Shown here: piece after piece, positions 25,191 to 27,827 of the stretch
Numbering within the stretch: the first letter of the stretch is position 1
How the letters are laid out: every line of letters begins with the position of its first letter
Assembly: GCA_001464425.1 (NCBI GenBank)
Contig: LNEK01000020.1
Coordinates: 124,001 to 188,000 of the forward strand
Direction of reading: 5' to 3'
Length of the DNA stretch: 64,000 bases
Source: Alphaproteobacteria bacterium Ga0077535
GTDB lineage: Bacteria; Pseudomonadota; Alphaproteobacteria; Caulobacterales; Aquidulcibacteraceae
Notes under the pieces: generated by a model
Told to the model about the DNA's origin: nothing
What the model saw: the letters and a program-made list of their open reading frames with translations, nothing else
The model's database searches: none
Translations under genes and position numbers: made by a program

Positions 25191-25822
25191 TTAACTTGAA
25201 TCAGGTTTGAAGTGGCGCGCGCCGGCATAAGCGGCGTGGTCGCTCTCGATTTGTGCATCGCCGTCGGCGTGTGGCGAACGCGGCCAGCCTTTGACGGCGA
25301 GCTTGAGCGCCAAGTTCGGCGCTGTGTTGAGCTTGCGCGCGAGGCTGCGGACGGCGGCAATTGGTTTCGCGAAGAGGCGCTCCAGTGCGCCGATGCGGCG
25401 TGCGATGAGTTCGGCTTGGGCCGGGCGTGTGGCGCGCGCCATGTTGAGGCGGCGCATCATTGCGGCGCGCGCGTGGTCGCGGAAAATGTCGCGGACCAGC
25501 AGCGGCGGGCCGAGCTGGCGGATGCGTGCTGGCGGCGGAGGTGTGCGCGGCCAGAGGCGAAGCGCGTAGGTGCGCGACCGCGGTGTGGTGGATGTGCGGT
25601 GTGTGAGCCGCGCTCGCTTGACTCCTGCAGGTTCATTCGCGAGCGCCATTGCTTCGATCAGCACGATTTTGCGTACCAAGGCTTCGAGCGGTCGAACCGC
25701 GCGCGCATGCGCTCGATCTCGTATCGGCTGAGCGCTTGCGCCGCGATGTGACCTGCTGCGCGCACGCGCTCGAACATGGTTCGTGCGGCGGCCCAGAGTT
25801 TGGCGATGGTGGATGTGGTCAT
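25191..25822 (-). pseudogene. Conserved alphaproteobacterial hypothetical gene broken by a one-base frameshift
   Basis: The ATG at 25822 starts MTTSTIAKLWAAARTMF and runs to RARFDR at about 25690, then ends after eight unrelated codons at 25658. The next frame carries on without a gap as LEALVRKIVLIEAMALA down to a stop at 25191. Adding one base at 25688-25690 restores a single 210-residue reading frame, RARFDR-LEALVRKIVLIEAMALA. The continuous protein looks like a helical, Arg/Ala-rich alphaproteobacterial hypothetical; I do not know its function. The break is either a real recent mutation or a sequencing error. It lies convergent to the AsmA-like gene, 3 bases from its stop. Confidence 0.72.
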
Positions 25823-25944
25823 GGCGCGAGTATGCGCCGGGTTGGAAGTCGGTCGGATTGAGCGGGCGCTATCCTCGTATTTTGGGGGTGAGCGAGTGGG
25901 TTGGCGCCAAGCTTCTCGTGCGCTTGGCAGGGGGTAGCGCAAAT

Positions 25945-26026
25945 GCTTGCAGAAGTAGCGCTCGCCCCTCCGGCCGCGAACGCTGTTCGCGGCCACCTCC
26001 CCCTGACGGGGGAGGACGGGAGCTAA
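25945..26026 (-). repeat. Palindromic intergenic repeat, copy A, at the 3' end of the DUF559 gene
   Basis: About 82 bases nearly identical to copy B (26487-26569). It holds two hairpins: a 10-bp stem GGCCGCGAAC/GTTCGCGGCC and an 8-bp stem CCTCCCCC/GGGGGAGG. Read on the minus strand it starts exactly at the stop codon of the DUF559 gene, which is supplied by the repeat end itself (CTA at 26023-26025). Confidence 0.85.
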
Positions 26027-26415
26027 CGACCTAGGGTCTTTGCGCGCTCTTTCGCGACGCTGATGATGTGGTCGACAATGACGTCGGTGCTGCGCAGCAT
26101 GTTGTCGTTGGAGAAGCGCAGCACTTCGTAACCTTGCGTGGCCAGCCAAGCCGTGCGCTCGGCGTCGTATGCTTTCGCTGAGGTTTGGTCATGCTGGTCG
26201 CCATCCAGCTCCACGATGAGCTTGGCGCGGCGGCACTCGAAATCAACGATGAAGCGACCTATCGGAGACTGGCGACGAAACGCGAGGCCCTGGTGGCGCA
26301 TGTGACGGAGATTCACCCAAAGCCGGATTTCTGCGTCCGTCAGTCGCTTGCGCAGCGCGCGGGCGAGTTCTTTGGGCGTGCGGCGAAGGTAAGCGCCTTT
26401 TAAGAAGGTTCGCAA
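26023..26415 (-). CDS. DUF559 domain protein, Vsr-like endonuclease fold
   Basis: 130 residues, normal for the family. The sequence ARALRKRLTDAEIRLWVNLR, the Arg-rich FRRQSPIGRFIVDF and then RRAKLIVELDGDQHD match DUF559, a relative of very short patch repair (Vsr) nucleases with a PD-(D/E)xK type core; Asp in IVDF and Glu/Asp in VELDGDQH are the likely metal ligands. The end (GYEVLRFSNDNML) is also typical. No methyltransferase or mismatch repair gene is adjacent. Instead, the gene is bracketed by three palindromic repeats (25945-26026, 26422-26474, 26487-26569), which suggests a selfish or mobile origin. Its real substrate is unknown. Confidence 0.92.
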   Translation of the reverse strand: MRTFLKGAYLRRTPKELARALRKRLTDAEIRLWVNLRHMRHQGLAFRRQSPIGRFIVDFECRRAKLIVELDGDQHDQTSAKAYDAERTAWLATQGYEVLRFSNDNMLRSTDVIVDHIISVAKERAKTLGR

Positions 26416-26421
26416 CTCTCT

Positions 26422-26474
26422 CTCCCGTGCTCCCCCGTTAGGGGGAGCTGTCAGCGCGAAGCGGTGACTGAGGG
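26422..26474 (+). repeat. Palindromic intergenic repeat, copy C (inverted, divergent), upstream of DUF559
   Basis: Two hairpins: GCTCCCCC (26429-26436) with GGGGGAGC (26441-26448), and GTCAGCG with CGGTGAC (26450-26468, one mismatch). The C-rich hairpin and the flanking CCCGTG resemble copies A and B in reverse orientation; the second hairpin differs. It lies just before the DUF559 start codon. Confidence 0.7.
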
Positions 26475-26486
26475 GGCGGCGACGCT

Positions 26487-26569
26487 GCTTGCAGGGATTG
26501 GTGCTCGCCCCTCCGTCCGCGAACGTTGTTCGCGGACACCTCCCCCTGACGGGGGAGGACGGGAGCTAA
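26487..26569 (-). repeat. Palindromic intergenic repeat, copy B, at the 3' end of tyrS
   Basis: About 83 bases matching copy A. The first hairpin is GTCCGCGAAC/GTTCGCGGAC; relative to copy A one G-C pair has become T-A on both arms, a compensated change that keeps the stem. The second hairpin CCTCCCCC/GGGGGAGG is identical. The repeat ends 1 base from the tyrS stop codon. Confidence 0.85.
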
Positions 26570-26570
26570 A

Positions 26571-27827
26571 TTATTCCACCCGCAACAGCGCGTGTTTCTT
26601 TTTGCCGAAGGAAAGTTTCACGGCGCCGTCGACTAAATCGGAGTCGCTTAGGGCTGCGGCTTCGTCGGTGACCAGTGTGTCGTTTACGCTAGCGGCTTTT
26701 TGTTGGATGGCGCGTTTGCCTTCGCCGTTGGAGCCGACGAGGCCGGCTTTTGCCAAAGCGGCGGCGACGCGCAATTGTGCGAATTCTGCACGCGGGATCA
26801 CGATGGTCGGCAGGTTTTCGCTGCGGGCGCCTTGTTCGAATGTGGCGCGCGCGGCCTCTTCAGCTTTCAGCGCTTCGTCACGGCCATGCAGTAGCGCGGT
26901 CGCTTCCGTGGCCAGCACTTTCTTGGCGTCGTTGATCTCGGCGCCTTGCAGCGCCTCGAGGCGCGCGATTTCGTCGAGCGGCAGGTCGGTGAAAATTTTC
27001 AGGAAGCGGCCGACGTCGGCGTCTTCGGTGTTGCGCCAGTATTGCCAGTACTCGTACGGGCTCTTCATGTCGGCGTTGAGCCAGACTGCGCCATCGGCAG
27101 TCTTGCCCATCTTGGCGCCGGAGGACGTGGTGATGAGTGGCTGGGTCAGGCCAAAGAGCTCGTAGCTCTCCATGCGGCGGCCGAGTTCAACGCCGTTGAC
27201 GATGTTGCCCCACTGATCGGAGCCGCCCATCTGCAAGCTGCAGCCGTAGCGCTTCTTCAGCTCCACGAAATCGTAGGCTTGCAGGATCATGTAGTTGAAT
27301 TCGATGAAGCTCATCGGCTGCTCGCGCTCGAGGCGGAGCTTGACGCTATCCATCGAGAGCATGCGGTTGACGCTCATGTGGCGGCCGACCGTGCGCAGGA
27401 AATCGAGGTAGTTCAGTTTCAGCAGCCACTCGGCGTTGTCGACGAGGATGGCGTCGCTCTTGCCGTCGCCAAACGTCAGGAATTTCTCGAACGTGCCGCG
27501 GATGGAGTTGGTGTTCTTGACGATCTGCTCCTCGGAGAGGAGCTGGCGCATCTCTTCTTTGCCGGAGGGGTCGCCGACGCGGGTGGTGCCGCCGCCGAGG
27601 AGAACGATGGGCTTGCCGCCAGCCTGTTGGAGACGGCGCAGGTACATGATCTGGGTGAGGTTGCCGACGTGCAGCGACGGCGCCGTCATGTCGAAACCGA
27701 TATAGCCAGTGATTCCGGCCTTGGCGGCCTTATCCAGGCCCTCCAAATCGGTGCATTGGTGGAACTGCCCGCGCGCGACGGCGGCGCGGAGGAAATCGGA
27801 TTGGACGTTGGCGGTTTCAGCGGTCAT
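26571..27827 (-). CDS. tyrS: Tyrosine-tRNA ligase
   Basis: 418 residues, full length for the bacterial enzyme. The class I HIGH signature appears as LHVGNL (about residue 50) in the Rossmann fold, [13 protein letters not shown] being typical of TyrRS. The KMSKS loop is KMGKT in [14 protein letters not shown]. The C-terminal S4-like RNA-binding domain begins near [20 protein letters not shown]. It charges tRNA-Tyr with tyrosine. The ATG at 27827 gives the normal N terminus. The stop is directly followed by repeat copy B, which may serve as its terminator. Confidence 0.98.

Follow-up and report, generated by a model that had tools for sequence, protein, structure and literature searches.

What kind of genetic unit is formed when a small nuclease gene sits between palindromes at the 3' end of a host gene? 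The question is raised by a locus beside tyrS in Alphaproteobacteria bacterium Ga0077535 (Caulobacterales), on a 64,000-nucleotide stretch of contig LNEK01000020.1 (positions 124,001 to 188,000; hereafter, the window), where a gene of the DUF559 family is bracketed by three palindromic units, A, B, and C. Our results suggest that this block is probably one copy of a widespread enzyme-plus-palindrome element, which combines a DUF559/YcjD nuclease with BoxC-type palindromes and for which we propose a nuclease-driven spread. Specifically, such palindromes bracket DUF559 genes across bacteria, their copy number depends on the gene, their sequence class follows the nuclease lineage, and whole blocks have inserted at sites that are empty in sister species. 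The nuclease itself would then be the agent that moves the repeats.

The nuclease gene (26023-26415, minus strand, TTG start) encodes a 130-residue protein of the YcjD type of PF04480. The family profile matched it well beyond the curated cut-off of 20.6 (129.5 bits, E 6e-38), the nuclease residues E, D, E-x-D-G, and H occupy invariant columns in family alignments A1 and A3, and an AlphaFold2 (AF2) model agrees with the assignment. Around the gene, the three units have the anatomy and positions that the original prediction gave them. Unit A (25945-26026, minus strand) and unit B (26487-26569, minus strand) are direct copies, with 96% identity over 67 nucleotides plus GCTTGCAG at the outer edge, while unit C (26422-26476, plus strand) is a diverged inverted relative, 74-75% complementary to each of them over 61 nucleotides, and forms an inverted pair with B. 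Each unit contains two hairpins. In A, a hairpin of pyrimidine arm (Y-arm) and purine arm (R-arm), CCTCCCCC-GTCA-GGGGGAGG, lies at 25996-26015, a variable second hairpin with a GGCCGCGAAC stem at 25972-25994, and a purine tract, GGAGGGG on the minus strand, at 25965-25971; the corresponding parts are found at 26539-26558, 26515-26537, and 26508-26514 in B (minus strand), and at 26429-26448, 26450-26468, and 26470-26476 (GAGGGGG) in C (plus strand). Folding was much better than that of shuffled sequences for A and B (z about -3.6 to -4.7) and weaker for C (z -2.4 and -1.6). Further, A supplies the DUF559 stop codon (TAG, 26023-26025, minus strand), and B directly adjoins the stop codon (26571-26573) of tyrS (26571-27827, minus strand), both as predicted. 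These three Y-arm hairpins are the only ones in the window with stems of at least 8 bp, and five block shuffles of the window yielded none. An Rfam search returned no match, and Pfam matched only DUF559 and MTES_1575, with no Y1/HUH transposase and no Vsr (PF03852). One further detail had been taken as a sign of selection on the stem, namely a G-C pair replaced by T-A on both arms (GGCCGCGAAC..GTTCGCGGCC in A versus GTCCGCGAAC..GTTCGCGGAC in B). The swap is real, but as a single event out of three A/B differences, it is weak by itself as proof of selection, and we do not rely on it.

A feature that the original prediction did not notice places these units in a known class. In A, B, and C, the purine tract that follows the second hairpin repeats the R-arm in mirror order, so each unit is a potential intrastrand triplex, in which the second hairpin is the loop between the purine arm and the third tract. 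Triplex palindromes, known as BoxC or PIT, are present in thousands of genomes, and those of Escherichia coli have been known since the 1990s. Their consensus, given for BoxC/PIT/TMECO as CCCTCNCCC-loop-GGGNGAGGG-N3-GGGNGAGGG (PMC4666352), likewise ends in a block that mirrors the purine arm, which is why the strand can fold into a triplex. By sequence, A, B, and C share this layout of Y-arm, loop, R-arm, spacer, and mirror purine tract, and they deviate from the strict E. coli consensus in that the spacer is a 19-23-nucleotide hairpin rather than 3 nucleotides; shorter spacers were found elsewhere, for example in Deinococcus. Across 310 hairpins flanking DUF559 genes, a third tract (a purine tract no more than 45 nucleotides from the hairpin, with a match of at least 83%) was present in 87%, compared with 12% in shuffled flanks. 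The DUF559-flanking hairpins are, for the most part, BoxC/PIT/intrastrand triplex repeats, with the triplex fold itself predicted. Both sets also occur as inverted pairs, are intergenic, and differ sharply in number between close strains, and the E. coli copies lead to the same gene family: the DUF559 gene of that species is ycjD, between sapF and fabI, its last codons enter BoxC/PIT/TMECO repeats, and more of them lie in its downstream region. The literature has treated these motifs as repeats only, with no mobility gene reported near them, an origin called unanswered, and their spread left unexplained (PMC4666352). We found no link of DUF559 or YcjD to palindromes in the open-access literature, subscription papers being outside this coverage. 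Another set of alphaproteobacterial palindromes, the CGTC-tagged repetitive extragenic palindromes (REPs), is similar in consisting mostly of inverted dimers with no associated transposase gene (PMC3733652). Membership of the window palindromes in that set was rejected, as they have other sequences, without the CGTC tag and without A/T at the first two stem positions.

Are such palindromes a regular companion of DUF559 genes? A blastn search with the 82-bp unit A found A and B as the only strong matches in the genome, and a reading without dispersal was considered until the other two of its three DUF559 loci each proved to carry two-hairpin, GC-rich repeats of a different sequence, which led to a wider test. 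We sampled 72 DUF559 loci out of 101 relatives' genomes in the order and scored hairpins with a pyrimidine (rarely purine) 5' arm within 300 bp of the gene, with flanking stems of the CCTCCCC/CCCTCTCCC type. Hairpins were present at 65 of the 72 loci, on both sides in 49, compared with 4/72 per side in distal control windows 700-1000 bp away and 1/30 for ParE-toxin genes of the same genome set. Samples from the class Alphaproteobacteria (27/30 loci) and the phylum Pseudomonadota (28/28, 14 of them outside Alphaproteobacteria) gave the same picture. Among named loci from about ten phyla, 67 of 80 were bracketed, including Betaproteobacteria (7/8), Gammaproteobacteria (6/7), Thermodesulfobacteriota (3/3), Myxococcota (2/2), Chloroflexota (2/2), Planctomycetota (2/3), and single loci of Methylomirabilota, Rokubacteria, and Binatota; there is slight overlap among all these sets. 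More bracketed cases came from Deinococcus, cyanobacteria, Neisseria, and Sinorhizobium, and ycjD of E. coli K-12 is bracketed as well. The flanking units are arranged in inverted rather than direct fashion by 56:16 (p 2e-6), and about half of the DUF559 frames that have a downstream hairpin enter it before their stop codon. A conventional explanation would treat the hairpins as ordinary terminators or insulators, with DUF559 as an intergenic passenger, as the location of hairpins at gene ends, with a stop codon often in or near the repeat, might suggest. We consider this very improbable, given that ParE toxin genes are unbracketed, that a mirror purine tract, and not a T run, comes after the stems, and that PIT elements, according to the review in PMC4666352, showed no activity as terminators; nor would it explain the copy-number and lineage tracking described below.

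Dispersal was measured by genome-wide pattern counts as well as by locus sampling, and the counts track the number of DUF559 genes, instead of being spread evenly through genomes that lack the gene. In the 101 genomes of the order (pattern CTCCCCN{3,8}GGGGAG), hairpin and gene counts were correlated (Spearman 0.70; within-genus permutation p 0.0005), with medians rising from 2.5 copies with no DUF559 to 67.5 with 6-11 genes. Among 389 Alphaproteobacteria, at least 10 copies were found in 61/106 genomes with DUF559 and 12/283 without (odds ratio [OR] 31, p 4e-30; within-family permutation p 0.0002), and among 120 other Pseudomonadota (pattern CTCNCCCN{3,8}GGGNGAG), at least 20 copies were found in 14/21 and 2/99, respectively (OR 97, p 2e-11). 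Within E. coli, 3364 of 5426 genomes carry ycjD and 550 have neither gene nor repeats; in a set of 60 genomes spaced evenly along the ranking, the median number of TMECO places was 9 with ycjD and 4 without (p 2e-6), a comparison to be read with clonal structure in mind. It might be argued that GC-rich or repeat-rich lineages simply happen to carry both, since DUF559 and the hairpins are each commoner in GC-rich Pseudomonadota. Such confounding is scarcely credible here: the link persists when genomes are compared inside a genus or a family, and inside E. coli with clonal structure taken into account, counts of reversed control patterns remain at chance, and the hairpins are local to the gene.

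If the repeats belonged to the enzyme and not to the genome, their sequence should follow it, and this is what we observed. We classed hairpins by arm sequence and mapped the classes onto a 167-domain DUF559 tree, where they changed 44 times, relative to a mean of 75 (minimum 66) in 100 shuffles. The class was common to a gene and its nearest relative in another genome with unrelated flanks in 69% of cases, and in 88% at 65% identity or more, whereas it was common to only 20% of same-genome paralogues and 33% of all pairs. The tree and the pair figures together indicate that the repeats track the lineage of the enzyme rather than the genome that houses them.

Do the blocks insert? The original prediction asked for empty sites in sister species, and these were found at the window locus and at two others (L065 and L315). 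Within the genus, DUF559 is present at only 1 of 30 tyrS loci, that of the window, so the block is far from being shared at this site by all relatives, and an AsmA-like neighbor gene directly follows the tyrS stop in most of the loci inspected by eye. The sister species G022 (locus L125) retains the same hypothetical gene between tyrS and the AsmA-like gene and lacks the DUF559 block: in the alignment, homology ends at 25809 and restarts at 26572, so that the missing stretch (25810-26571) contains A, DUF559, C, and B, with both flanks kept. At L065, the inserted 587 bp span exactly hairpin to hairpin; the site measures 15-18 bp in three genomes (G010, G001, G027) and bears a solo hairpin in G020, and the gene is present in G007 and G029. 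At L315, a junction where a stop and a start codon overlap, the site is empty in some species, and others hold a solo hairpin (G022), an inverted pair (G008), a full block (G020), or an unrelated palindrome (G007). Gene-less inverted pairs also occur in frame inside the pyruvate dehydrogenase E2 linker of the window's genome, and the pairs found there in other species differ in sequence (loci with such pairs: L278, 1498-1605, and L353, L355-L357). We retain this case only as an intragenic insertion and rejected it as a clean empty site, because palindrome-free linkers have similar length. Rejected likewise was the sapF-fabI site of E. coli, where strains without ycjD (L372, L373) hold the eefRABCD operon (PMC12817139).

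As to the enzyme, Foldseek ranked the DUF559 structure 3hrl first for the AF2 model (pLDDT 89), followed by the catalytic domain of the intron homing endonuclease I-Bth0305I (3r3p; E 5.6e-5, probability 1.0), and sequence profiles agree (I-Bth0305I profile E 2e-5). Vsr (1vsr) was weaker by both routes (Foldseek E 0.02; profile 0.2), so that "Vsr-like", as the family was initially described, is roughly right about the PD-(D/E)xK-type fold, although 3hrl and I-Bth0305I are nearer. Judged from the model, then, the DUF559 fold is closest, beyond its own family, to a homing endonuclease catalytic domain. Despite this likeness to the EDxHD enzyme I-Bth0305I, which resides in a phage mobile intron, DUF559 is free-standing and chromosomal; the window gene is intergenic and palindrome-bracketed, not in an intron or intein, and a phage origin was rejected, as DUF559 occurs in only 3 of 50,697 phage records.

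This kinship gives weight to the main rival explanation, in which the palindromes spread by some other process and DUF559 is a homing parasite that cleaves a palindrome and is then introduced by recombinational copying, with the palindromes as its homology arms. The gene does sit between palindromes, and solo palindromes are found where sister species hold a full block. Nevertheless, the window site and others are without palindromes as well as without the gene in most relatives, and because palindromes are so scarce in most genomes that lack the gene, which gene-independent spread would not predict, this rival explains the data less well, and we regard it as unlikely. Improbable in our view is a second alternative, that DUF559 is a housekeeping Vsr-like mismatch or structure-specific repair nuclease, whose presence lets a genome tolerate triplex palindromes, so that repeats build up and adjacency is accidental. 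Such a role would account for the copy-number correlation and finds a parallel in Caulobacter VsrA, a PD-(D/E)XK protein with a DUF559 domain that has been tied to DNA damage upon loss of a cytosine methyltransferase and to SOS, with no palindrome link described (PMC12907096). It would leave unexplained the bracketing by inverted copies, the lineage-specific hairpins, and the patchy, multi-copy presence of the gene. The VsrA link to DNA damage does make DUF559 activity on chromosomal DNA plausible.

Because bracketing is near-universal in the bacteria examined, and carrier genomes are far richer in repeats, we consider the DUF559 gene the best candidate yet for the spreader of BoxC/triplex repeats. 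In the mechanism we propose, the nuclease would recognize folded DNA (a hairpin, cruciform, or triplex) of its own lineage and cut or nick it, and the break would be resolved by copying. Gene-bearing blocks, together with gene-less inverted palindrome pairs resembling miniature inverted-repeat transposable elements (MITEs) or REPINs, would spread to gene junctions and intragenic linkers, and loss of the gene would leave relic palindromes. We infer the cutting step, the form of DNA that is cut, and the repair route; bracketing, the copy-number link, lineage specificity, and insertion are what would be expected if the nuclease gets its own palindromes copied, as REP-associated tyrosine transposases (RAYTs, or TnpA-REP) are thought to do with REPs. 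The two systems share an enzyme gene bracketed by lineage-specific palindromes, dispersed gene-less inverted pairs, and a copy number tied to the gene. They differ in that the RAYT enzyme is a Y1/HUH transposase, compared with a PD-(D/E)XK nuclease here, and in that the palindromes here are of triplex type, with CCTCCCC-type arms in 454 units and no GTAG tag of the REP kind in A, B, or C. The best reading is therefore a second REP/RAYT-like enzyme-palindrome system built on an unrelated enzyme, in line with the module that was originally suggested and now supported by bracketing across phyla and by hairpin class following nuclease lineage.

Several observations weigh against a nuclease-driven element. 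First, no target-site duplication was seen at the three junctions read. Second, about one in ten DUF559 loci has no detectable hairpins, and bracketing units were found in both orientations, so that no single element boundary fits all loci. Third, some genomes with DUF559 have few matches to the patterns counted, and others (among them G302, G414, G462, and G524) have many hairpins and no DUF559 match, the latter fitting candidate relic populations after gene loss. Finally, the copy-number correlation gives no direction of cause. A broader proposition, which we hold to be evenly balanced between right and wrong, is that DUF559/YcjD and BoxC palindromes form a mobile-element class of their own in about ten phyla or more, in which a nuclease of homing fold would copy its triplex-forming palindromes by structure-specific cleavage, gene-less pairs would be non-autonomous passengers, and the whole would be an independently evolved counterpart of REP/RAYT. 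If this is true, a large DUF family would gain a function, and the enzyme-plus-palindrome strategy would have arisen more than once. With a named candidate enzyme, ycjD in E. coli K-12, the question of how BoxC spread becomes testable.

Some smaller observations accompany these results. A palindrome of another type (GCGGGTCGGAAGACCCGCGCTCC-like) lies at the tyrS locus of G019 (L123) and at a site in G007 (L316), junctions that hold DUF559 blocks elsewhere, which marks them as insertion hot spots for several repeat types. At L259-L263 (G043, G054), a multi-copy composite repeat joins a triplex-type pair to GTCATCCCGGAC..CCGGGAT palindromes, which may reflect joint movement of two repeat systems. 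Next to tyrS in the window, a hypothetical open reading frame (25191-25862, minus strand) without a Pfam match has an apparent frameshift near 25660-25680; its homologue occupies the same place in G022 (L125) and is absent there from most other relatives. DUF559 copies with one in-frame stop (G010:C1:463194, G020:C1:3590768, G029:C5:516051) may be decaying, and on Synechocystis and Picosynechococcus plasmids (L375, L377), DUF559 lies beside genes with a DUF1156 domain.
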